NCBI GenBank assembly: GCA_003661385.1
Contig: QMWA01000030.1
Location: 1-12,484 of the forward strand
Source: Thermoproteota archaeon
GTDB lineage: Archaea > Korarchaeota > Korarchaeia > B14-G2
Direction: 5' to 3'
Length of the DNA stretch: 12,484 bases
Shown: one piece after another, positions 1 to 12,484 of the stretch
Layout of the letters: every line of letters starts with the position of its first letter
Numbering within the stretch: the first letter of the stretch is position 1
Notes under the pieces: generated by a model
Seen by the model: only the letters and a program-made list of their open reading frames with translations
Told to the model about the DNA's origin: nothing
Databases searched by the model: none
Made by a program: the position numbers and the translations under genes

Positions 1-1125
1 AAGCTCGTGAACTGCGTTGTCAGGGGGAGGAGGAGGCTTAGGCTCCTTGAGGAGGCAGGGGAGCTCCCTAGGGTTGAGCTGAGCCAGGAGGAGGCTGCTG
101 ACGTGGAGAACCTGGCTTACGGGGTGTACAGCCCGCTGGAGGGCTTCATGGCAAGCGAGGAGCTTGAGTCAACGCTAGCTGACATGAGGCTCCCAAGCGA
201 TGTACCCTGGACCATTCCCATCCTACTGGATGTAGATGAGAGCACTGTGGAGGAGCTCAGGGAGGGAGACTACATAGCCCTGTGCGCTGGGAAGCCTATC
301 GCTTTGATGAGGGTTGAGGAGGTCTACAAGCACAGCAAGGAGGACATAGCTCTCAGGGTGTATAGGACCAGCAGCTTGGAGCACCCTGGTGTGGCTAGAG
401 TGATGCAGATGAGGGATTTCCTGCTAGCTGGCAGGGTGGAGCTGATATCAGACCCGCCTAACCCCTATGAGAGGTATACTTTGAGGCCAGCTGAAACCAG
501 GGTGCTGTTCAGGGAGAGGGGCTGGAGGACTATAGCAGGCTTCCAGACCAGGAACGCACCCCACCTGGGGCACGAGTGGATCCAGAAGACAGCCTTGGCC
601 TTCGTGGATGGAGTTTTCATCAACCCTGTGATAGGCAGGAAGAAGAGGGGTGACTTCAGGGATGAAGTGATCTTGGCAGCTTACTCGGAGCTGATAGAGC
701 ACTACTACAACCCCAACACTGTGGTGCTGAGCATCCTGAGGTATGAGATGAAGTACGCTGGCCCAAGGGAGGCAGTTCACCACGCTATAATGAGGAAGAA
801 CTTCGGCTGCACCCACTTCATCGTAGGGAGAGACCACGCTGGTGTAGCAGGGTTCTACAAGCCATATGAGGCTCAGGAGATATTCAAGGAGTTCCCTGAC
901 CTCGGGATAACACCCCTGTTCTTCAGGGAGTTCTTCTACTGCAGGAGGTGTGGTGGGATAGCAAACGAGAAGACGTGCCCTCACCCTGAGGAGGAGAGGC
1001 TGAGGTTCAGCGGGACCATGATAAGAAAGATTATAGAAGGCGGTGAGAGGCCCCCTGAGTACGTCATGAGGCCTGAGGTAGCTGACACCATACTCTCATT
1101 CAAGGAGCCTTTTGTAGGTGGCTAG
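1..1125 (+). CDS. sat: Sulfate adenylyltransferase (ATP sulfurylase), 5' end outside window
   Basis: Cytosolic enzyme that makes adenosine 5'-phosphosulfate (APS) and pyrophosphate from sulfate and ATP. The frame is open from base 1. The first codons read Lys-Leu-Val-Asn, which matches the middle of the N-terminal 'HGGKLVN' stretch of archaeal Sat proteins, so the GTG at 7 is most likely an internal valine and the true start lies a few codons upstream. Counting from base 1, the nucleotide-binding motif QTRNAPHLGH is at about codons 182-191 and GRDHAG at 276-281. A C-terminal zinc-ribbon-like cluster (C314, C317, C326, H328) is typical of archaeal and thermophilic Sat. The 374 codons present are close to the usual 380 or so, so little is missing. 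The 3' end overlaps the next gene by 8 nt, indicating co-translation. The family assignment is very secure; the exact start cannot be seen. Confidence 0.96.
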   Translation, partial: KLVNCVVRGRRRLRLLEEAGELPRVELSQEEAADVENLAYGVYSPLEGFMASEELESTLADMRLPSDVPWTIPILLDVDESTVEELREGDYIALCAGKPIALMRVEEVYKHSKEDIALRVYRTSSLEHPGVARVMQMRDFLLAGRVELISDPPNPYERYTLRPAETRVLFRERGWRTIAGFQTRNAPHLGHEWIQKTALAFVDGVFINPVIGRKKRGDFRDEVILAAYSELIEHYYNPNTVVLSILRYEMKYAGPREAVHHAIMRKNFGCTHFIVGRDHAGVAGFYKPYEAQEIFKEFPDLGITPLFFREFFYCRRCGGIANEKTCPHPEEERLRFSGTMIRKIIEGGERPPEYVMRPEVADTILSFKEPFVGG

Positions 1126-2491
1126 CTTGAGGAGGCTCCTGCTGATAGGCTTGGACTCAGCTCCCCCAAGGCTCATAGAGGAGCTCAAGGGAGAGCTCCC
1201 AAACACCTCTATGCTGGTTGAGGATGGGCTCTATGGGCCTCTTAGGAGCACAGACCCGCCTATAACGATACCAGCTTGGGCTAGCATGCTGACTGGCAGA
1301 GACCCAGGTGAGCTAGGGCTATACGGGTTCAGGCACAGGAAGCCTGGAAGCTACACAGACTTCTACATAGCTAGCTCAAAGAGCGTCAAGCACCCCTGGC
1401 TCTGGGACTACGTCGGGGAAGCAGGTGGCAGGAGCCTCGTCATGGGGGTGCCGCCGAGCTACCCACCTAAGCCCCTGAGGGGAGCCCTGGTATCATGCTT
1501 CATAACCCCCTCTGGGAGGCCATACACTTACCCACTTGAGCTCAGGGGGGAGGTTGAGGAGGCTGCTGGAGGCAAGTACATCTTCGACATAGAGTTCAGG
1601 ATAGAGGACAGGGACAAGGTGCTACATGACCTATATGAGATGACTGAAGTGCACTTCAAGGTGCTCTCTCACCTCATGGAGAAGCGCTGGGACCTGGTTG
1701 CCTTCGTCGAGATAGGAGTGGACAGATTGCACCACGCCTTCTGGAAGTACTATGACAAAGCTCACCCAAAGTATGAGCCTGGGAACAGGTATGAGCACGT
1801 GATCCCAGAGTACTACAAGTACATCGACAGCTGGATAGGTAGGCTCCTTGAGAAAGCTGGGGACGCCCTGGTCTGCGTGGTCTCAGACCACGGGGCCATG
1901 GGCATGAAGGGAGCACTATGCATAAACCAGTGGCTAGCTGAGCAAGGGTACCTGAAGCTGGAGGAGCAGCCTCCACCCAGGACACCCCTAGCCAAGGCGA
2001 AGGTGGACTGGAGCAGGACCAAGGCGTGGGGCTGGGGAGGATACTACGCCAGGGTGTTCCTGAACGTGGAGGGCAGAGAGCCCAGTGGAGTAGTCCCCAG
2101 GGGGAGCTACGAGGAGGCTAGAGAGGAGCTCGCCCAGGCGCTAGAGGAGATGGAGGACCCTGATGGCAGGAGGATGGCTACCAAAGCCTACAGGCCAGAG
2201 GAGCTCTACAGGGAGGTCAACGGGGACCCACCTGACTTGATAGTCTACCTGGATGACCTCAGCTGGAGGTCAGCTGGAACCATAGGGTACCCTACACCCT
2301 ACCTGCCTGAGAACGACACTGGGCCAGATGACGCAGTGCACTCCAAGCATGGGGTGTTCACGCTCTATGACCCAGAGGGCACGCTCCCCAATGGGAGGTG
2401 TAGAGCCCACATACTGGACGTGCTCCCCACCCTCCTGGATGCCATGGAGCTTGAGGCCCCCAGGCTAGCTGGGAGAAGCCTCTTGAGGTGA
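1118..2491 (+). CDS. Alkaline-phosphatase-superfamily phosphodiesterase / nucleotide pyrophosphatase
   Basis: A 457-residue metal-dependent hydrolase of the type I phosphodiesterase/nucleotide pyrophosphatase branch of the alkaline phosphatase superfamily. The full set of expected metal and catalytic residues is visible: D13 in LLLIGLDSA, the probable nucleophile T50 in ITIPAWASMLTG, D202 and H206 in GVDRLHHAFW, D257-H258 in VVSDHGAMG, and H411 in HSKHGVF. A threonine nucleophile with no Cys/Ser-X-Pro-X-Arg motif argues against a sulfatase. There is no signal peptide or membrane segment, so it is probably cytosolic. It starts with GTG inside the end of sat, with a GGAG about 10 nt upstream, and ends 4 nt before cysC. 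Its place between the two PAPS-forming enzymes suggests a substrate in sulfonucleotide metabolism (APS, PAPS or PAP) or a phosphorylated glycan intermediate. Neither can be chosen from sequence. Confidence 0.88.
   Translation: MASLRRLLLIGLDSAPPRLIEELKGELPNTSMLVEDGLYGPLRSTDPPITIPAWASMLTGRDPGELGLYGFRHRKPGSYTDFYIASSKSVKHPWLWDYVGEAGGRSLVMGVPPSYPPKPLRGALVSCFITPSGRPYTYPLELRGEVEEAAGGKYIFDIEFRIEDRDKVLHDLYEMTEVHFKVLSHLMEKRWDLVAFVEIGVDRLHHAFWKYYDKAHPKYEPGNRYEHVIPEYYKYIDSWIGRLLEKAGDALVCVVSDHGAMGMKGALCINQWLAEQGYLKLEEQPPPRTPLAKAKVDWSRTKAWGWGGYYARVFLNVEGREPSGVVPRGSYEEAREELAQALEEMEDPDGRRMATKAYRPEELYREVNGDPPDLIVYLDDLSWRSAGTIGYPTPYLPENDTGPDDAVHSKHGVFTLYDPEGTLPNGRCRAHILDVLPTLLDAMELEAPRLAGRSLLR
2485..2490 (+). 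promoter_or_regulatory. Shine-Dalgarno GAGGTG for cysC
   Basis: GAGGTG lies 5 nt before the TTG start at 2496 and overlaps the stop codon of the preceding gene. It decides the cysC start: the ATG at 2491 runs into a stop after one codon, whereas TTG opens the full conserved kinase frame. Confidence 0.75.
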
Positions 2492-2495
2492 TGCC

Positions 2496-3047
2496 TTGAG
2501 TGGGTTTGTTGTCTGGATAACTGGGCTCCCTGCTTCAGGGAAGACCACCGTAGCCAGGCTGCTGGCTGAGCGCCTCAGGGGCCTGGGGCTGAAGGTGGAG
2601 CTTCTAGACGGGGACGAGGTGAGGAGGTGGCTTAGCAGCGACCTGGGCTTCACCAGAGAGGACAGGGAGAAGCACCTGACTAGGGTAGCTCACCTCTGCA
2701 GGATCCTAGCCAGGAATGGGATAGCTGTGATAGCCTCCTTCGTATCACCCTACAGGGAGACCAGAGCTAGAGTGAGGAGGATAGTTGAGGGGGAGGGCAT
2801 CCCCTTCATAGAGGTCTATGCTGAGTGCAGCTTAAAGGAGTGCATCAGGAGAGACCCTAAGGGGCTTTACAAGAGGGCCTTGAGGGGGGAGATAAGGAAC
2901 ATGACTGGGATAGACGACCCATATGAGCCTCCAGAGCACCCTGATGTCAGAGTGGATACAGAGAGCTCTCCACCAGAGGAGGGGGCTGAGCTGGTTTTCA
3001 GGAAGCTTGTGGCTCTCGGCCTCGCTGAGCCTCAGGTGGTAGGTTGA
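2496..3047 (+). CDS. cysC: Adenylylsulfate (APS) kinase
   Basis: Phosphorylates APS at the 3' hydroxyl with ATP to give PAPS, the universal sulfuryl donor. This is a single-domain P-loop kinase of 183 residues, a normal length for free-standing CysC. Visible motifs are the Walker A GLPASGKT (10-17), DGD (38-40), the APS-binding helix FTREDREKH (52-60), the conserved SPYRETR segment (84-90), the CIRRDPKGLYKRA lid region (about 116-128) and GIDDPYEPPEHPDV (138-151). The start is TTG with a strong GAGGTG ahead. Its TGA overlaps the TTG start of the flippase gene. With sat two genes upstream it completes PAPS synthesis. No PAPS reductase, sulfite reductase or sulfotransferase is in the window, so the downstream use is inferred from the glycan-type neighbours only. 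Confidence 0.95.
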   Translation: MSGFVVWITGLPASGKTTVARLLAERLRGLGLKVELLDGDEVRRWLSSDLGFTREDREKHLTRVAHLCRILARNGIAVIASFVSPYRETRARVRRIVEGEGIPFIEVYAECSLKECIRRDPKGLYKRALRGEIRNMTGIDDPYEPPEHPDVRVDTESSPPEEGAELVFRKLVALGLAEPQVVG

Positions 3048-4581
3048 CTGACGACCTCGTTGGGGACTTAGCTGGTGAGGCGGCTAGAGGAAGCTTCTTC
3101 CTGGCTGTCGGGCAGTTTTTCACGCTGACCTTTGGTGCTGCAAGCGTGTTCATCATTGCTAGGATGCTTGGGCCAGAGGGCTATGGGCTGTACTCCCTAG
3201 CTCTCATTCCAGCTAGCTTGCTTGTGCTGGGCACCCAGTGGGGGCTTAACATAGCCTTAGTCAAGTACAGCTCTGAGGCAAGGGAGAGAGGGGACTTAGC
3301 TGCTGTCTGCTCAGCTTTCAGGTGCTGTCTAGGCTTCAGGCTCATAGCAGGTGCCTTAGGTGCTGTGGGTGCTTCCTCTTCTCAGGCCAGCTTGCATCGT
3401 GGCTGCTGAACCGCCCTGAGGCATCTGGGCTGGTTAGGGTCGCCTCAGGGCTCATACTGGCTCAGGCTGAGTCATTCAACGCATACACAGGGACCGTGGG
3501 GCTAGGGTGAGCTGAGGGGAGTGCTGCAGCCAACCTGATCCAGTCTGCGTCGAGGCTCATACTAGCTCCTCTGCTCATCCTATGGTTCAGCACAGTTGGA
3601 GCTGTAGCAGGGCATGTCGCCAGCTTCGCCATAGGAGCTGCAGCAGCGCTCCTAGGAATCAGGAGGGTGATGCCATGTGGAGGCTGCAGCTTCTCAAGCC
3701 AGCTCTTGAGGAGCATGCTGGCCTATGGGCTCCCAGTCTATGTCTCGAACCTCATGCTGAGCTTCTCCAATAACTACCCTAGCATCGTGCTAGCCTGGTT
3801 CAGAGGAGACTTCGAGGTCGGGAACTTCAGTGCTGCAGTGAAGTTCATATTCTTCCTCTCAGCGATAGCCATGTCCTTCTCACTCGCCATGCTCTCAGCT
3901 TTCTCAAGGGCTTCAGCTGGAGGGAGAGCCGCGTACGTCTACGGGTACTCAGTCAAGTACCTGACTCTGGTCCTGCTGCCTCTGGTGGTCTGCACTTCAG
4001 CTGGAAGCAAGCTGCTAGTCAACTTATTCTATGGCAGAGAGTACACCCTAGCTCCAAAGGTGCTCTCAGTCTACTCCCTCACCTACATGCTAGTAGGCTT
4101 CGGCTACCTCGTGAACCAGAGCTACTTCAATGGAATAGGCCAGACCAAGGAGGTCCTGTGGATGAGCCTTGCTTCAGCAGCAGTCCTAACTCCAGTCGCC
4201 CCGCTGCTAGCCAAGCTATGGGGGGCTATCGGGATAGCCTTGAGCCTCATGGCATCACAGGCTGCATCCTGCCTAGTAGGCTTCAAGAGAGCTACAGGGA
4301 AGTTCAGTGCAACATGGCCTAAGAGCGACATAGCTAAAGCCTATGCTACAGCGCTCATAGCAGCTCCAGTAGCGGCCTTATCATACCTGAATGCTACACT
4401 AGGCTACGTGCTGCTCCCACTCTACCTCCTAGCCTACCTCACGCTGCTACCCATCACAGGAGCAGTCAATGGGAGAGACCTCGAGATCATGAAGTCAGCT
4501 GCAGAAGCTCTGCCAGTAAGCTGGGCTGCTAAGCCCCTCATAGGGTACCTGAGCTGGGTTCTCAGGAGGTCAAGCTCTTAA
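3044..4581 (+). pseudogene. Wzx/RfbX-type polysaccharide flippase, interrupted by a frameshift and a stop
   Basis: A multi-pass membrane protein of the MATE/MOP flippase superfamily, which moves lipid-linked oligosaccharides across the membrane. The N-terminal part starts at TTG 3044, overlapping the cysC stop, and holds the typical AARGSFFLAVGQ and ARMLGPEGYGLYSLA segments. At about 3373 the homology moves to the -1 frame, as if one T were missing from GCTTCC: the frame read so far stops at 3409, while the other gives the continuing hydrophobic helix FLFSGQLASWLL. That second frame then meets TGA at 3508-3510, within GLG*AEGSAANL, after which flippase-like sequence continues unbroken to TAA at 4581. 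Repairing both sites gives about 512 residues, the normal family length, with about a dozen hydrophobic segments. TGA ends other genes here, so recoding is unlikely. It is either a decaying gene or the product of sequencing errors. An AGGTGGT just before the start serves as ribosome binding site. Confidence 0.85.
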
Positions 4582-4603
4582 GCTACAGCAGCTGAGGCCT
4601 GGT

Positions 4604-5134
4604 ATGAAGCCTAGGTTCTCTGTCTTGAGGGATGTTGAGGTTGGGGAGGGGACTCGAGTCTATGACCAAGTGAACCTGTATAAGTGTAGGATAGGGAGGA
4701 ACTGCAAGATAGATGCCTACGTGTACATTGAGGAGGGTGTTGAGATAGGTGATAACGTGAAGATCAGGGCATTCACCTTCATACCAACTGGGGTGAAGAT
4801 AGAGGATGATGTCTTCATTGGGCCTGGAGTCATCTTCACAAACGACAGGTACCCTAGGGTCAGGGGGAGGTGGAGGCTCCAGAGGACTACTGTGAGGAAG
4901 GGGGCATCCATTGGAGCTAGGGCAGTTGTGCTTCCAGGTGTCACGGTAGGAAGGTATGCCATGGTGGCAGCTGGCTCAGTAGTGACTAGAGATGTGCCAG
5001 ACTACGCTATAGTAGCGGGGAACCCAGCTAAGGTCATAGGCTACACGAACACAGAGGTGTTCAAGGAGAAGGTCAGGAGGCACTTAAGTGGAGGTGAGGT
5101 AAGAGGAGAGGAGGCAGACTGGCCCTGGCCGTAG
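4604..5134 (+). CDS. Hexapeptide-repeat acyltransferase, WlbB/WbpD-like sugar N-acetyltransferase
   Basis: A 176-residue left-handed beta-helix acyltransferase. Hexapeptide turns ([IV]-G-x-x-[AVC] repeats) run over about residues 9-75 and 95-130, followed by the typical ending [12 protein letters not shown] (135-146). The loop FTNDRYPR (78-85) is characteristic of the N-acetyltransferases that act on 3-amino-3-deoxy nucleotide sugars, such as UDP-2-acetamido-3-amino-glucuronate (WlbB/WbpD) and related QdtC/FdtC enzymes. Acetyl-CoA would be the donor and the reaction cytosolic. The ATG start has TGAGG about 6 nt upstream and follows the flippase by 22 nt, so it is probably in the same transcript. 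Its presence points to an acylated amino-sugar in the glycan handled by this operon. The fold is certain; the substrate is an inference from one loop motif and the context. Confidence 0.87.
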
Positions 5135-5221
5135 CCACAGAGCTCCTGAGGCCCTAGGCTACCCTGGCCTTATGCTAGTGCTTGCTGTGTTCTCCTGTCG
5201 AGCTGGTAGGTGTTGTCGGCT

Positions 5222-5232
5222 AGCTTATTAAG
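5222..5232 (+). promoter_or_regulatory. Putative TATA box for the MmgE/PrpD gene
   Basis: The AT-rich CTTATTAAG stands out in GC-rich surroundings. Its centre is about 26 nt before GTG 5254, the spacing expected of an archaeal promoter giving a leaderless or nearly leaderless mRNA. Confidence 0.5.
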
Positions 5233-5253
5233 GCAGGTGTGTGCTGGCTTGTG

Positions 5254-6603
5254 GTGCTTGGGTTGGCTGACGAGACCCGTAGGCTGGCTGAGTTTGCTTC
5301 CTCAGTCTCCTATAGGTCTCTGCCAGAGGAGGTCGTGGACAGGGTTGGGCTGCTCTTCGCTGACTGGCTTGCTTCAGCTCTAGGAGGGGCAGCTGAGGCC
5401 CCGGGGAGGATTGCTGCTAGGGTTGCTAGGAGGCTTGGTGGCCACCCTGAGTCCACTGTGCTGGGGTATGGGGAGAGGGTCTCTTGCTTTGCTGCAGCTC
5501 TAGCCAACGGCATCATGTCCCACATCCTAGAGCTGGATGACGTGCACAAGAAGTCTGTTACGCACCCTGGTGCAGCTGTCTTCCCAGCTGCCTTAGCTGT
5601 GTGGGAGGTTGTGGGGGGAGGAGGCGAGAGGCTTGTTGAGGCTGCTGTGGCAGGATACGAGCTCGTAGCGAGGGTTGGGGAGGCAGCTGGGAGGAGCCAC
5701 TATGAGATCTGGCACACGACTGCTACAGCAGGGACCTTTGGCGCTGCAGCTGCGGCAGGTAGGCTGCTCGACCTGAGCCCAGAGGAGATGGCTTGGGCTC
5801 TTGGGTCAGCTGGCACATCAGCTTCAGGCCTCTGGGAGTTCCTGGAGCAGGGTGCGATGAGCAAGCACCTCCACGCTGGCAAGGCTGCTGCACTAGGAGT
5901 GCTCTCAGCCATGCTGGCTGAAGAGGGCTTCACAGGCTCAACAACCATCCTGGAGGGCAGGAGGGGGTTCCTGAGGGCCACTTCAAGGCAGCCAAGCCTA
6001 AAGCCCCTAGTTGAGGGGCTTGGGGAAGGCTATAAGGTGATGGAGGTATCGATAAAGCCCTATGCCTCATGCAGGCACACCCACTCAGCTATAGACGCGG
6101 CTCTCAAGCTCAGAGAGGAGGTAGATGTAAGGGAGATAGCTGAAGTCAAGGTTGAAGTCTACAGTGATGCCCTGAAGATAGCTGGGAACCCCAGCCCAAA
6201 GACACCGTATGAGGCGAAGTTCAGCGTCAGCTACTGCGTAGCTGCTGCACTCCTCTACGGGAGGGCGGGGATCCATGAGTTCACTGCAGAGAAGCTGAGG
6301 AGCAGAGAGCTCAGGTCTCTGATGAGGAAGGTGAAGGCTGAGGCAAGCAGTGAGCTGGACAGGATGTACCCTGAGAAGTGGCCTGCCAGGGTCACAGTCT
6401 ACACTGAAGGCAGCTCGTGCTCAGCTCAAGTAGACTACCCACTAGGAGACCCAGAGAACCCGGTGTCAAGGCAGCAGCTTGAAAGGAAGTTCAGAGAGCT
6501 GGCATCTAGGGCACTGCCCTTGGAGAGGGCGCCGAAGGTGTTTGAGCTCGCATCCAAGCCATGGCTCCTGAAGTCTCCAAGAGACCTCATGGACATGCTT
6601 TAG
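5254..6603 (+). CDS. MmgE/PrpD-family protein (2-methylcitrate dehydratase / cis-aconitate decarboxylase fold)
   Basis: A cytosolic enzyme of the MmgE/PrpD superfamily, whose members act on small di- and tricarboxylates (2-methylcitrate dehydration, cis-aconitate decarboxylation, iminodisuccinate epimerisation). All recognisable family blocks are present, numbered from GTG 5254: the helical start RLAEFASSVSYRSLPEEVV, LELDDVHKKSVTHPG (93-106), YEIWHTTATAGTFGAA (150-165), GAMSKHLHAGKAAALG (200-215) and SIKPYASCRHTHSAID (266-281). These hold the His and Lys residues that form the family active site. The frame opens at GTG 5239; GTG 5251, GTG 5254 and TTG 5263 are also possible. I chose 5254 because of the TATA spacing. 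At about 450 residues it is full length. It stands alone, with no propionate or glyoxylate pathway gene nearby, so the substrate is unknown. Confidence 0.92.
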   Translation: MLGLADETRRLAEFASSVSYRSLPEEVVDRVGLLFADWLASALGGAAEAPGRIAARVARRLGGHPESTVLGYGERVSCFAAALANGIMSHILELDDVHKKSVTHPGAAVFPAALAVWEVVGGGGERLVEAAVAGYELVARVGEAAGRSHYEIWHTTATAGTFGAAAAAGRLLDLSPEEMAWALGSAGTSASGLWEFLEQGAMSKHLHAGKAAALGVLSAMLAEEGFTGSTTILEGRRGFLRATSRQPSLKPLVEGLGEGYKVMEVSIKPYASCRHTHSAIDAALKLREEVDVREIAEVKVEVYSDALKIAGNPSPKTPYEAKFSVSYCVAAALLYGRAGIHEFTAEKLRSRELRSLMRKVKAEASSELDRMYPEKWPARVTVYTEGSSCSAQVDYPLGDPENPVSRQQLERKFRELASRALPLERAPKVFELASKPWLLKSPRDLMDML

Positions 6604-7596: not shown

Positions 7597-7608
7597 GGAT
7601 TTATGCTT
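7597..7608 (-). promoter_or_regulatory. Putative TATA box for the epimerase gene
   Basis: On the minus strand GCATAAAT lies just after and partly within the herA stop region, with its centre about 25 nt before the ATG at 7577. This is the spacing expected for a leaderless archaeal mRNA. Confidence 0.55.
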
Positions 7609-9862
7609 AAGCCTCTATCTCCAGGTGGTGCTCCTCTACCTGAGCAGCCTTCCTCTGCTCCTCCATCCTCCTCCAGGCTTCGCTTGGCATAGCAGCTGCT
7701 TTAGCGGGGTAGATGTCCACGTCCACGTCTACTAGGACTGGGAAGGGAGCTGGGACAGCTGGGCCCCATGCCAGGGCCTGGTGGTCTGCTAGCCCTGGGA
7801 GTACCCTCCTCAAGCTGCTGTCTCCCTGCTCAGTGTACCTTGCTATGGCATCCTGGTCTGCTCCGCTCCTCATCCTGAAGCAGAAAACCGAGTTTGCTTG
7901 GCTTATCACGTTCTTGGAGACGTAAGCTGGCCTCTGGGTGACCACTATGAACCCTAGGTTGTAGCCTCCAGCCTGGCTGACTGCCTCAGTGAACACCTTG
8001 TCCACCCCTGTGGCCTGTGGGTTGCTGACCATCGGGGCGTTCCTCTCTGGGGCAATGTACTGGGCTTCCTCCACCACAGTTATCAAGGCGAAGCCTCCTG
8101 TGCTCCTCTGCTCCACAGCGTAGTCTATCAGGGTTCTGAGGAGCTCCTTGACCACCATGTACTGCCTCGTGAAGTCCACGTCGACTGAGAAGTCCACTAT
8201 GGTGAGGGGGAACCTCCTTATCAGCTCAATGACCTCAGCTGAGTCTCTGCACGCGAGCTCATCTATCACATCCTTGCACTCCTCTATCCTGACAGCTATC
8301 TCAGCCAAGTACCTGCGTCCTCCAGTCAAGCTGAGCAGAGACCTGCACTCTGAGAGTATGGCCTTGCTGTTGACTGGGTCTCCACGCCTCTGAAGCCTCT
8401 CAACAGCCTCCATAACGACCTGAGCTGCCTTAGCCCTGGTGGAGGTGTAGCCTAGCATCCTAGCTATGTCACCTGGTGTAAGAGACCTGCTTGAAGCCAG
8501 CGCGTCATATGGTATCGTGACCCCACCGTACCTGGCTAGCGGGGTGTACTCTCCTCTCCTATCCAGGACGAGGAGGGTAGGCCTGTACTTGAGGAATGTG
8601 AGGCTCCTCCTCAGCAGTGTCATGACGAAGCTGCTGTTGTGCACGAAGAGGCTGTTAGCTAGGAAGGTGCTCCCGTCAGCGACATCTATGTCATACACCA
8701 GGGGAGGGAGCCTAGCTCTCACAACCCTCTTAACTGGGTCTAGCGTGATCCACTCTGATGCAACAGCCTCTAGGACAGCCAGGCTCCTCCTAGCCTTCTT
8801 CAGCGAGGCTCCTCTCCCAGCCCTGCTGAGGAAGCTCCTGAGGGCTCTGGTCAGCTTAATCAGGGTTTCTCTGCAGCATATGCCCTCCTTACAGGCCTGC
8901 TTGACCTCGCTGAGCTTCAGCTCAGCTTGGACAGCAAGCTTGTGCAAGCTCACCCTCAGGGCCTTCCTGCAAGCATCCAGGAGGCTGCCGACATAAAGCT
9001 CGCTGCACTCCCCGCTGTGCCCTGGAAGCTCCTCTCCCCGAGGGGAGATCATCATCATGCCCTCTCTGAGGAGGGAGGCCTTCGTCACGATAGCTCCGCC
9101 AGCTGTCACAGCTATGACAGAGTGGTCCCTCGTGACCCTCAGCCTCCTACCGCTCTCGGTCTCGACCTCAACCCCCTCTAGCGGAGCTCTGTGCCTCAGA
9201 ACTCCAGCTACCCTGCTCCACCTCCAGCTCAAGTTGCTGCTCAAGGAGAGCGTGTAAAGCTCGCTTTCAGGTGTGAGCTCAGAGACCTCAACCCACCTAG
9301 CTGCCCTATCAGATGTCGTGTAGACTAGAACTCTGGTGTCAGGGGTGACGCTCTTGCCGCTCCTGGTCATCCCAGCTACAAAGGCGTGCCCTCTAGCGAT
9401 GGCATCAAGGTCTATCCAGAAGGTAGCTCCCACACCTGATATCGTCCCAACTGGAACCCTAGCCTGGGAGCGGGGAGCGTAGCTCTCGAAGAACTGCTTC
9501 AGGGTGTAGCTGTCAGGCTTGTAAACTGGAGTCCAAGTCGGCGGAGGAGCCTCGAGGTACATGAACCTGCCTGAGTCGACGTACCCGAGCACCTCACACT
9601 CTCCAACAATGTACTCAAGCTGGGTTCCAGCTTGGAGCTCTAGCCCGCGGCTTCCAGCTAAAGCTCCTAGCGCCCCGAGGGTCATCTCAGGGTTTATCGG
9701 CTTCAGGTTGGACACCCTCATGAGCACGAGCTTGGTGCCACCGTGGTACAGTGGGTGCTCTATGACGCAGAAGTCACCTACCTTCACGTTCTCATCGTTC
9801 TTCTTAACGAAGAGGACCTTCTGGATGTCGCTTTCAGCTAGGGTGAACCCTATTACCCTCAT
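7607..9862 (-). CDS. herA: HerA bipolar DNA helicase/translocase, split by an intein
   Basis: A hexameric FtsK/HerA-type ATPase that pumps DNA for NurA during double-strand-break end resection. The precursor is 751 residues. Residues 1-140 carry the N-terminal HAS-barrel type domain. The Walker A motif is interrupted: AGMTRSGK (163-170), then a 239-residue intein (171-409), then SSFVMTLL (410-417). Splicing gives an intact GMTRSGKSS P-loop and a 512-residue HerA, a normal size for archaeal HerA. Further motifs are LVLDRRGEY (431-439), the Walker B strand ALITVVEEAQYIAPE (592-606) with E598-E599, and VTQRPAYVSKNVISQ (641-655), followed by RMRSGADQDAI. The C-terminus LADHQALAWGP...PFPVLVDV matches the family. 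The start is ATG 9862, preceded by GAGGTG. The gene follows nurA by 2 nt. HerA should be inactive until the intein is removed. Confidence 0.95.
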   Translation of the reverse strand: MRVIGFTLAESDIQKVLFVKKNDENVKVGDFCVIEHPLYHGGTKLVLMRVSNLKPINPEMTLGALGALAGSRGLELQAGTQLEYIVGECEVLGYVDSGRFMYLEAPPPTWTPVYKPDSYTLKQFFESYAPRSQARVPVGTISGVGATFWIDLDAIARGHAFVAGMTRSGKSVTPDTRVLVYTTSDRAARWVEVSELTPESELYTLSLSSNLSWRWSRVAGVLRHRAPLEGVEVETESGRRLRVTRDHSVIAVTAGGAIVTKASLLREGMMMISPRGEELPGHSGECSELYVGSLLDACRKALRVSLHKLAVQAELKLSEVKQACKEGICCRETLIKLTRALRSFLSRAGRGASLKKARRSLAVLEAVASEWITLDPVKRVVRARLPPLVYDIDVADGSTFLANSLFVHNSSFVMTLLRRSLTFLKYRPTLLVLDRRGEYTPLARYGGVTIPYDALASSRSLTPGDIARMLGYTSTRAKAAQVVMEAVERLQRRGDPVNSKAILSECRSLLSLTGGRRYLAEIAVRIEECKDVIDELACRDSAEVIELIRRFPLTIVDFSVDVDFTRQYMVVKELLRTLIDYAVEQRSTGGFALITVVEEAQYIAPERNAPMVSNPQATGVDKVFTEAVSQAGGYNLGFIVVTQRPAYVSKNVISQANSVFCFRMRSGADQDAIARYTEQGDSSLRRVLPGLADHQALAWGPAVPAPFPVLVDVDVDIYPAKAAAMPSEAWRRMEEQRKAAQVEEHHLEIEA
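8636..9352 (-). mobile_element. HerA intein (Ser1 type, inserted in the Walker A motif)
   Basis: Residues 171-409 of the HerA precursor. Block A is SVTPDTRVLVYT (171-182), with Ser as first residue. Block B is RRLRVTRDHSVIAV (239-252), with the T-x-x-H pair T244/H247. Blocks F and G are VYDIDVADGSTFLANSLFVHN (389-409), ending His408-Asn409, with Ser410 as the +1 extein nucleophile. Between B and F lie about 135 residues without the paired LAGLIDADG motifs of a homing endonuclease. They contain CxxxGxCC (324-330) and a helix-turn-helix-like stretch. It can be explained as an endonuclease-free intein that has kept a DNA-binding-like domain. The boundaries are set by the restored GKSS P-loop. 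Composition resembles the host gene, so it is not a recent arrival by eye. Confidence 0.93.
8831..8950 (-). other. Helix-turn-helix-like segment inside the HerA intein
   Basis: Residues about 305-344 of the precursor (SLHKLAVQAELKLSEVKQAC, then RETLIKLTRALRSFL) follow the pattern of a Cro/LacI-like helix-turn-helix, the type found between the splicing blocks of some archaeal inteins. Sequence pattern only; no structure can be checked here. Confidence 0.4.
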
Positions 9863-9864
9863 CT

Positions 9865-10890
9865 CTACACCTCAAGCTTCTCTCCATAGAGCGGAGCCAG
9901 AGCTGCCAGGGCTTCAGCTGGAAGCTCTCCGCTTGAGACCCTCTTCATCACACGTGTGAGCAGCGATAAGGCTGCTGCTCTAGCTGACTTGGGGGACACC
10001 TTAGCATAGTGGTCTGCTACCTCAACTGGAACTGGGAGCCCTGAAGCTGGGCTGCTCCAGCAGAAGACCTCGTCTACAGCCTGCTCTGCCTCAGCCTCCT
10101 GCTCCCCTGGGAACTCAACCCTCACAACCCTCCCAGTAGCAGCCTTCACGTAGCAGTAGACAACCCCCCTGCTGGACTTCAGCAGCCTAGTCCTGTAGCT
10201 GCGTGGCAAGAGCATCGCACAGAGGGCAGCGTCCCTGAGCTTCCCTCCATTGAGCTGCCTAGCGAGCTCGCTGCTCCTAGCCCTCTTCACAACCCCAGCT
10301 ACAACCACTCCTCTAGAGACGCAGGTGTCTATGAGGCTGAGCAAGGCCTCTGATGCGCTCCTGTAGTCCCTCATGTAGCCCTCTGAGCCCCTCTTGAGCC
10401 AAGTTGGAGGGGTCAGGGAGCCGTCCCAGACCAGGAGGCTTGGCCTCCACTTCTCTAAAGCTGAAGCTGAGACCTCAGCTTGAAGCCTCAAGGCAACCAG
10501 GCTTGCTCTGTCAGATGGGGTGTCTTCGCTGCTCCAGACCTCGCTTGGGCTGTAGCAAGCTGACAGTATGTCAACTGGAGAAGGCCTACTGGCGAAGACG
10601 CATGCTACAGCTGAGACAAGAGGGAGGTAGCCTGAGACAAGCTCAACTCCGCTGTACCCTGCGTCAGATGAGCAGAAGACCCCCCTTGGCCTCCTCGGCT
10701 GGAGCGGCTTTGGGTCGAGCTCAGCTAGGAGCTCACCCCCCCTGGCCTTGAGCTCAGCTAGCTCCTCAACAAGCCTCCTGAAGGCCTCTGTGCAGCTGGA
10801 CGAGAGCGCAGCAAGTGAGCCAACATAGCTCTTGGATAAGTCCTTCTGGACCCAGTTGTCAAGTGGAAGCTGAGCCAAGGGGGGCACCAC
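9865..10890 (-). CDS. nurA: NurA 5'-3' nuclease
   Basis: A 341-residue NurA-domain nuclease, the partner of HerA. HerA-NurA degrades the 5' strand at DNA ends, with Mre11-Rad50, to make 3' overhangs for RadA. Typical features are CSSDAGYSG (73-81) with the metal-binding Asp76 followed by E83, SLLVWDGSL (151-159) with Asp156, the VVVAGVVKRARSSELARQL segment (195-213), and VPVEVADHYAKVSP (287-300) with conserved His294 near the C-terminus. The N-terminal part is helical (LVEELAELKARGGELLAEL). The last two codons (GAG GTG) also form the Shine-Dalgarno for herA. The frame opens at tandem GTG codons 10890/10887. A TATA-like box at 10901-10909 is spaced about 26 nt from TTG 10878, so a leaderless start there is an alternative. 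No mre11 or rad50 is adjacent, unlike in many crenarchaea. Confidence 0.9.
   Translation of the reverse strand: MVPPLAQLPLDNWVQKDLSKSYVGSLAALSSSCTEAFRRLVEELAELKARGGELLAELDPKPLQPRRPRGVFCSSDAGYSGVELVSGYLPLVSAVACVFASRPSPVDILSACYSPSEVWSSEDTPSDRASLVALRLQAEVSASALEKWRPSLLVWDGSLTPPTWLKRGSEGYMRDYRSASEALLSLIDTCVSRGVVVAGVVKRARSSELARQLNGGKLRDAALCAMLLPRSYRTRLLKSSRGVVYCYVKAATGRVVRVEFPGEQEAEAEQAVDEVFCWSSPASGLPVPVEVADHYAKVSPKSARAAALSLLTRVMKRVSSGELPAEALAALAPLYGEKLEV
9868..9873 (-). promoter_or_regulatory. Shine-Dalgarno GAGGTG for herA
   Basis: GAGGTG on the minus strand is formed by the last Glu-Val codons of nurA, 5 nt before the herA ATG. It supports translational coupling of nurA and herA. Confidence 0.75.
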
Positions 10891-10911: not shown

Positions 10912-10977
10912 CGCTGAGCTAGGCTTTAACAGTATCTTTCTGAGAGCTCATTTTACAGCCTAAAGCGGAATTTGAGC

Positions 10978-11036
10978 CTGAAAAAACCCTACATGCTGGA
11001 AAAACATTGCACTATGCTTCCTCCAGGTTTTTTCAG
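10978..11036. repeat. 11-bp perfect inverted repeat with 37-nt spacer in the divergent promoter region
   Basis: CTGAAAAAACC at 10978-10988 pairs exactly with GGTTTTTTCAG at 11026-11036. It sits in the most AT-rich part of the window, between the nurA promoter and the TATA box of the regulator gene (about 11063-11070). It may be an operator for the adjacent winged-helix regulator, an RNA hairpin, or the ends of a small element. There is no direct evidence for any of these. Confidence 0.6.
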
Positions 11037-11057
11037 CGGAGCTCCCTGTTTGGCCAC

Positions 11058-11071
11058 AAAGCTTATATTTG
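11058..11071 (+). promoter_or_regulatory. Putative BRE/TATA promoter for the CARF-like regulator
   Basis: AAAGCTTATATTTG is a good archaeal BRE plus TATA match. The TATA centre is about 22-23 nt before ATG 11089. This is slightly short but compatible with a leaderless or very short leader and supports ATG 11089 as the start. Confidence 0.6.
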
Positions 11072-11088
11072 ATGTATGCAGAGGTTTT

Positions 11089-11862
11089 ATGTCAGAAAAA
11101 ATAATTTTGGCAGGCTGCCAGCTGGTGGCCCAGATGCAGCAGAGCACGTGGAGCGGGCTAGGAGAGCAGAAGACCCTAGTGGTAGCTGAGGGAAGCCTAG
11201 AGACAATGCTGGAGGCCTTTAAAGCCGTGATGCCTCACATGCTGATAGTCCTGAGGCAGAAGAGCGGTGGGGCATCAGATGTAGCTCAGCTTGAGCTCAG
11301 CTTGAAGGCCATACTCAGGGAGTTCCACACGCTGGAAGCTGAGCTCTCAGACTTCACCTCAGTGCTCTCAGCAGCCTGCAGGGCTATAGAGCAGGCTGAA
11401 GGCAAAGCCTATGTGCTGATAGACTCCAAGAGCCCAGCTGCCACAGCAGCGCTGTACACGGCATGCCTGCTCAAGGGAGCTCAGCCCTTCACCCTCTCAG
11501 CTGGAGCACCTAGCCCGCTGCCTGTGGCCAGGAGCCTTGAGCTAGGTGAGAACGAGAAGGCAGTCCTCCTAGCCCTCCTTGAGCTGGGTGAGGCAACAGT
11601 CAGGGAGATAGCCTCAGTGGTCAGCTTGGAGAAGGGCAGGAGGGGGAGGCCTAGGCGTGGGGAGGAGAGCGGGAAGGCTAAGGAGGCTCTCGTAGACTAC
11701 TACATAGACAAGCTGAGGAAGCTTGGGCTGGTCAAGAACAGCTTGAGGAAGGCGAACAGGCAGCTGATATACCTCCTCAAAGAGGAAGGCGAGTCTACTG
11801 CTAGGTTCATTGCTGCAGCTGAAGGCTACCTGGCTCAGCCTCGAATCGAGGTTGAAGCCTAG
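11089..11862 (+). CDS. Probable CARF-like (Csa3-like) winged-helix transcription regulator
   Basis: 257 residues from ATG 11089. The open frame extends back to TTG 10972, but those codons cover the AT-rich promoter and the inverted repeat and look non-coding. Residues 28-137 suggest a Rossmann-like CARF domain: strand KTLVVAEGS, a helix, strand MLIVLRQKSGG, a long helical region, then AELSDFTSVLSAACRAIEQA and KAYVLIDSKSPAATAALYTAC, placed like the 'nltGG-k-m-a-a' motif of CARF proteins but without its Gly-Gly. Residues 152-232 look like a winged helix-turn-helix (GENEKAVLLALLELGEATVREIA, then YYIDKLRKLGLVKN and RQLIYLLKEEGE). The wHTH contains an arginine-rich insert, GRRGRPRRG (183-191), with an AT-hook core. 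CARF-wHTH proteins such as Csa3 sense cyclic oligoadenylates and regulate CRISPR genes. Ligand binding is doubtful here and no array is present. It lies divergent to nurA-herA. Confidence 0.6.
   Translation: MSEKIILAGCQLVAQMQQSTWSGLGEQKTLVVAEGSLETMLEAFKAVMPHMLIVLRQKSGGASDVAQLELSLKAILREFHTLEAELSDFTSVLSAACRAIEQAEGKAYVLIDSKSPAATAALYTACLLKGAQPFTLSAGAPSPLPVARSLELGENEKAVLLALLELGEATVREIASVVSLEKGRRGRPRRGEESGKAKEALVDYYIDKLRKLGLVKNSLRKANRQLIYLLKEEGESTARFIAAAEGYLAQPRIEVEA
11839..11851. repeat. Short palindrome at the 3' end of the regulator gene
   Basis: CCTCGA-A-TCGAGG, a 6-bp perfect inverted repeat around one base, lies in the last codons of the regulator gene. There is no T-run after it, so function is unclear. 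Confidence 0.35.
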
Positions 11863-11906: not shown

Positions 11907-12484
11907 ATGGGGCTTAGCTTGCTTCATACAGTAGAGGATGTTGTCGCTGTAGCTAGGTGGAGGAGGAGAGCTGAGGTCACAGAGGAGGATCTGAGGAGGG
12001 TTAAGGAGGGTAGGAGGAGGCTTGAGTCTCTGATATCAAAGGGGTACCTGATATACGGTGTGACAACCTCATTTGGCCCACTCTGCAACAGGGTTGTGCC
12101 AAAGAGGAAGGCTGAGGTCATCCAGTGGAAGCTGGTTGTGAGCCACGCCTCCAACGCAGGGGAGCTGCTTCCTGAGGAGGCTGTGAGGGCAGGGATGTAC
12201 TGCAGGCTCCTAGTCCTGCTCAAAGGCAGCAGCGGGGTCAGGCCTGAGGTCGTTGAGCTCCTAGCTGAGATGCTCAACCGAGAGGTTACGCCAGCAGTCC
12301 CTGAGCTGGGGTCAGTTGGAGCCAGTGGAGACCTAGGGCACCTAGCTCACATAGCTGCAGCGATGGCAGGTGAGGGGGAGGCCTTCTACAGGGGGGAGCT
12401 GCTTCCTGCAGCAGAGGCCTTGAGGAAGGCTGGGCTCAAGCCAGTCAAGCTGAGCTACAAGGAGGGGCTTGCTCTGATAAACGG
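11907..12484 (+). CDS. hutH: Aromatic amino acid lyase, probably histidine ammonia-lyase, 3' end outside window
   Basis: The open frame runs from ATG 11907 to the window end without a stop (192 complete codons, about 40% of a usual lyase of roughly 500). The family removes ammonia from histidine (giving urocanate), phenylalanine or tyrosine using the MIO cofactor, which forms by itself from Ala-Ser-Gly. That triad is A139-S140-G141 in GSVGASGDLGHLAHIA. YGVTTSFGPL (50-59) holds the catalytic Tyr50. The segment WKLVVSHASNAGE (74-86) carries Ser-His at the selectivity position, as in histidine ammonia-lyases, where PAL has Phe-Leu and TAL has His-Leu. KEGLALING at the very end is the conserved block that continues '-T'. 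No other hut gene is visible. The family is certain; histidine as substrate is likely but rests on two residues. Confidence 0.9.
   Translation, partial: MGLSLLHTVEDVVAVARWRRRAEVTEEDLRRVKEGRRRLESLISKGYLIYGVTTSFGPLCNRVVPKRKAEVIQWKLVVSHASNAGELLPEEAVRAGMYCRLLVLLKGSSGVRPEVVELLAEMLNREVTPAVPELGSVGASGDLGHLAHIAAAMAGEGEAFYRGELLPAAEALRKAGLKPVKLSYKEGLALIN

Follow-up and report, generated by a model that had tools for sequence, protein, structure and literature searches.

The window examined in this study, i.e. the whole stretch of 12,484 nucleotides on contig QMWA01000030.1 of a Korarchaeia genome (GCA_003661385.1), carries on its minus strand a herA gene that is split by an in-frame insert, together with the adjoining nurA gene. 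The coordinates of both genes, of the insert and of its parts are listed in Table 1. A gene for a Csa3-like protein (10972-11862, plus strand), with weak matches to TIGR01884 cas_HTH (2.5e-4) and TrmB, is divergent from nurA–herA. The start of a histidine/aromatic ammonia-lyase gene (11907-12482, plus; Lyase_aromatic 2.3e-67) is cut by the window end, and a gene judged by eye to be polysaccharide flippase-like spans 3044-4581 of the plus strand as two separate ORFs, 3044-3409 and 3667-4581, for which a frameshift or an assembly error may be responsible.

Table 1 Features of the interrupted herA gene and its neighbour nurA in the window
Feature	Position	Strand	Evidence or remark
nurA, 2 nt upstream of herA	9865..10890	minus	PF09376 NurA, 1.8e-15
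herA ORF	9862→7607	minus	751-aa precursor
HerA N-extein (residues 1-170), with Walker A GMTRSGK at its end (codons 9373-9353)	9353..9862	minus	weak HAS-barrel match
Intein, 239 aa, precursor residues S171–N409	8636..9352	minus	PF14890, TIGR01445/TIGR01443, HINT fold
Intein block B, T-R-D-H, intein residues 74-77	9122..9133	minus	T and H invariant across relatives
Five-helix domain at endonuclease position, intein residues 118-198	8759..9001	minus	AlphaFold2, pLDDT about 81-92
C-terminal splicing region VYDIDVADGSTFLANSLFVHN, intein residues 219-239	8636..8698	minus	TIGR01443, 2.4e-05; V-Y-D and H-N invariant
HerA C-extein, residues 410-751 and stop, beginning SSFVMTLL	7607..8635	minus	DUF87, 1.5e-05, above cut-off; HerA structures

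The insert was confirmed as a class 1-type intein by its splicing-domain sequence, predicted HINT fold and splicing residues, on the basis of which splicing is predicted. In Pfam, PF14890 Intein_splicing matched the insert alone (4.3e-13, profile positions 9–155 of 155), and in NCBIfam both TIGR01445 intein_Nterm (5.2e-08) and TIGR01443 intein_Cterm (2.4e-05) were above their cut-offs. AlphaFold2 modelling with 17 relatives generated a confident HINT fold (pLDDT 87.1, pTM 0.79), and the solved structures nearest to this model were inteins (Foldseek E down to 4.9e-10; VIA Z up to 21.3). Ser1, T74-x-x-H77, D221, H238, N239 and Ser+1 were invariant in a 12-sequence alignment. The insertion point lies between Lys170 and Ser410 of the Walker A motif, and excision of S171–N409 by sequence edit produced FVAGMTRSGK/SSFVMTLL (a slash marks the insertion point here and below) within a HerA of 512 aa. 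The preliminary description, which had named an intein at this residue of HerA, is therefore upheld, and its coordinates and residues (S171–N409, 9352→8636) were correct.

Ser1, TxxH, the block F Asp, His-Asn and Ser+1 are in agreement with the standard class 1 splicing pathway. In the HerA precursor, self-splicing would start with an acyl shift at Ser1, followed by transesterification to Ser+1, cyclisation of Asn239 and acyl rearrangement, whereby GK would be joined to SS and the 239-residue intein would be set free. The whole P-loop would be present only in the spliced 512-residue HerA, which could then drive NurA in DNA-end resection.

The preliminary description had also referred to P-loops as intein hotspots, and this agrees with earlier work in which the Walker A loops of ATPases are known intein sites (PMC5874633). 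The MCM of the window's genome is also intein-bearing: this protein of 1383 aa (L116, contig C5, 20500-27500; ORF 1321-5469, minus) contains two inteins, the first of which ends HN/SQILKFIAKV (the MCM P-loop by sequence) and the second of which precedes TISIAKAGII. Two inteins also occur in a T2SSE-type ATPase of a relative (L112 of G025, ORF 2-4570), with strong LAGLIDADG_3 matches and the first intein at the P-loop GETGSGK/S.

The host protein is the HerA of the HerA-NurA resection system, as indicated by DUF87, by HerA structure matches and by the adjoining nurA gene; in most of the stretches from relatives, a NurA gene is likewise the neighbour of herA. The best PDB matches of the precursor model, which is only moderate in quality (pLDDT 75), were Thermococcus kodakarensis HerA-NurA (9x1m) and Sulfolobus HerA (4d2i), at 1.1e-23. 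HerA has been reported to be essential in Sulfolobus islandicus (PMC8708640), and the Walker A mutant K154A of Sulfolobus HerA lost ATP and dsDNA binding (PMC5715905). By analogy with K154A, we strongly infer that the unspliced precursor is inactive. A second, uninterrupted HerA of the same type was not found in the window's genome (about 91% complete); if the HerA of the window is needed, its splicing is consequently needed as well. A contrary reading of the locus is that the intein has decayed and no longer splices, leaving herA as a pseudogene or as the source of a split or inactive HerA, and the window's own copy has no close relative with which selection could be tested. Decay is nevertheless hardly credible, given the open reading frame, the retention of all splicing residues and extein motifs, the intact nurA alongside and the failure to find a further HerA of the same type in the genome.

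HerA orthologues were searched for inserts at the same position, as the preliminary description had proposed, and an intein at the same residue (GMTRSGK/S...HN/S) was detected in 21/21 other Korarchaeia genomes with this HerA type, including three (G005, G008 and G019) in which herA is split over contigs or cut. These inteins comprise 350–396 aa where complete, and the next extein residue is S or T. Internal stops were indicated in some of the relatives' matches, but as the ORFs are open through intein and extein, these appear to be the stop codons at which the genes end. HerA of this type was not found by genome search in G006, G016, G018 and G021, which are therefore uninformative on the intein, and a diverged HerA paralogue in Korarchaeia (L060 of G025) is without intein.

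Outside the class, both empty P-loops and other insertion sites were observed. In a sister class, GMTRSGK runs straight into S/T in the HerA of G027, and the P-loop is also empty in the HerA of G026, where a Cys1 intein of 159 aa, in which no LAGLIDADG match was found, is located at QRPAYVSK/SVISQCN instead (L059:3373-5397; L095 is the same gene). Three HerAs of Bathyarchaeota (L086, L088 and L091) contain an intein five residues upstream (GM/S...HN/TRSGKS), and the partial L087 ends likewise; one of these inteins, in L088, keeps a LAGLIDADG_3 domain (2.2e-08). The other Bathyarchaeota HerAs (L089, L090, L092 and L093) are empty, with GMTRSGK directly before S or T. HerA has at least three separate intein sites, namely, GK/S, GM/T and YVSK/S. 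Most other HerA-like matches among the 394 genomes searched cross the P-loop uninterrupted, the ORFs being about 485–585 aa long, and tblastn revealed no related precursor in viral contigs. The preliminary description had considered that the insert might be conserved in all HerA proteins as a normal domain; because HerAs without the insert occur in sister classes and across the sampled archaea, it is neither universal nor a normal HerA domain.

Trees of exteins and inteins were used to evaluate the origin of the insert. In the HerA tree, the window grouped with the intein-bearing genes on a long branch and with support that is not strong (87/96), and a group of the window with the two P-loop-empty genes (G026 and G027) was rejected (p-AU 0.03). 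The intein and extein trees of the relatives had 13 of 16 splits in common, the other three being weakly supported and none in supported conflict, which fits co-inheritance of the intein with HerA rather than repeated homing. The window intein is at most 33% identical to the same-site inteins of the relatives (alignment A2), and its best matches among inteins are these same-site HerA inteins. A single clade of the window and same-site inteins against other inteins was not rejected (p-AU 0.30), in a tree without resolution. Because common origin is neither supported nor rejected by this test, a separate insertion in the window's lineage may be considered, i.e. two independent insertions at one GK/S hotspot, in which case fixation since the class ancestor would not be real. 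Such an event would account for the low identity, the very long branch and the poorly resolved tree; P-loops often hold inteins (PMC5874633), and a neighbouring site is used in Bathyarchaeota HerA. However, the insertions share the same residue, the best intein matches are mutual, the HerA genes group as sisters and no empty orthologue was found in the class, so that two insertions are unlikely. On sequence grounds, the window intein is likely the same element as the same-site inteins of the relatives.

The endonuclease has probably been lost from these inteins. Pfam detected no LAGLIDADG domain in the window intein, for which AlphaFold2 predicted helices in its place, and a LAGLIDADG match at E<=1 was obtained in 0/13 of the relatives' same-site inteins scanned, whereas other inteins of the same clade do match (1.5e-36 in L112 and 5.5e-16 in L110). 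The relatives' same-site inteins are related to the endonuclease-bearing PI-PkoII (3e-27) over the N-terminal half and over a C-terminal stretch that extends beyond the splicing domain. On inspection of the alignment, they appear to keep traces of the first LAGLIDADG motif (LLGAAVADG, LIGIALASG), and the second motif appears to be without the catalytic Asp. The middle region of these inteins is under purifying selection, with omega of 0.06–0.18 and bootstrap upper limits <=0.25 in seven close relative pairs (NG86), compared with about 0.05–0.12 for the relatives' exteins; these values are crude, being derived from single, partly non-independent pairs with high dS in some, and cover the relatives only, as the window intein has no close relative. 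The middle region of the relatives is therefore not decaying freely.

The window intein has a predicted five-helix domain at this position, and no sequence relative of the domain was detected in the searches described here. VIA aligned the window intein model over 200 residues with PI-TkoII (2cw7) and over 206 residues with TliVMA (7qss), compared with about 138 for plain mini-inteins, and helix-turn-helix accessory domains have been reported in both PI-TkoII and TliVMA (PMC8966425). A helix-turn-helix identity of the domain, suggested by eye and by superposition of the whole-intein model, is possible but was not supported by the sequence tests. With a profile of the helix-turn-helix stretches of two other inteins (L040 and L047), the window ranked at chance among shuffles; the pairwise scores of the domain against PI-TkoII and against the L040 and L047 stretches were at shuffle level; and no helix-turn-helix match to the domain was found in PDB sequences, NCBIfam, PHROGs or Pfam. 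Two of the relatives, G020 and G025, do have inteins with HTH_31/HTH_3 matches.

The middle region also bears on whether splicing is regulated. The preliminary description had inferred that splicing would be an on-switch for resection. In such a regulatory switch, the inactive HerA precursor would be spliced upon a trigger (for example, DNA ends, ssDNA, heat or redox state), and resection would thereby be turned on. Endonuclease-free P-loop inteins of RadA splice conditionally, and their remnant endonuclease loop matters (PMC5790916); a switch would also be consistent with the presence of the intein throughout Korarchaeia without detectable endonuclease, with the purifying selection on the relatives' remnant region and with the location of all five Cys of the window intein at residues 116-160, in or beside the helical domain (enrichment p 0.014, post hoc). 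However, purifying selection may reflect only the needs of folding and splicing, the window's lineage is without the conserved middle region of the relatives, and the five Cys are not conserved among the relatives, which makes a switch improbable. We assign similarly little credence to its evolutionary extension, in which an old homing intein became a fixed, vertically inherited resection switch in Korarchaeia, the endonuclease being lost, the leftover or replaced domain being selected and the precursor being stored until a damage or stress signal. Required splicing is not equivalent to regulated splicing, and no sign of conditional splicing is visible in the sequence; the plain reading is a self-splicing intein that is hard to lose.

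Like the window intein, the RadA mini-inteins of Pyrococcus horikoshii and Thermococcus sibericus (4e2t; PMC5790916) occupy an ATPase-domain site in a recombination ATPase, with a HINT fold (VIA Z 18.9) and a remnant region instead of an endonuclease, but differ from the window intein in host and in having a short loop where it has a predicted helical domain of ~80 residues. The CDC21-1 (MCM) inteins of Pyrococcus (6rpp, 6rpq), which are the best relatives of the window intein in PDB by single-sequence search (6.7e-06), likewise interrupt a replication ATPase; their host is MCM, and the VIA alignment is confined to the splicing domain (141-142 residues). PI-TkoII/PI-PkoII of the Thermococcus kodakarensis DNA polymerase (2cw7) is the best PDB relative of the same-site inteins (3e-27) and aligned by VIA with 200 of the 239 residues of the window intein (Z 20.6, 2.9 A), but has 537 aa and is described as a homing endonuclease, whereas the window intein is without a LAGLIDADG domain. 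Counterparts with the same host, residue and splicing residues are found within the class, for example in Ca. Methanodesulfokora washburnensis (NZ_RCOS01000098.1, L081); the Korarchaeia same-site inteins differ from that of the window in their length of 350-396 aa, their retained middle region and their identity of no more than 33%.

The preliminary description had remarked that HerA is not commonly listed as an intein host, and in agreement with this, HerA was not found as a host in the literature searched, although an earlier listing in an archaeal intein survey is possible. Inteins at ATPase P-loops are already known; of most interest here are the class-wide presence of the intein, with no endonuclease detected, and the remnant that is conserved among the relatives.

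Taken together, the HerA intein is very probably an old, co-inherited, homing-dead element of class 1 type, which must splice for HerA to be active and which is kept mainly because it is hard to lose. The ancestral HerA gene of Korarchaeia probably already contained it, following what would have been a single ancient gain, and the intein would have been inherited with HerA thereafter. The endonuclease would have been lost, and in the window's lineage its region would now be the five-helix domain. The remnant domain possibly has a role that helps the intein to persist; persistence may be explained mainly by the fact that loss needs an exact deletion within an essential motif. According to the homing-cycle view, an intein that is unable to home should decay and then disappear. 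With three separate insertion sites, HerA joins the ATPase hosts of inteins, and its inteins would offer a clean comparative case, in a DNA-repair motor, for distinguishing inteins that are merely hard to lose from those that are kept for a function.
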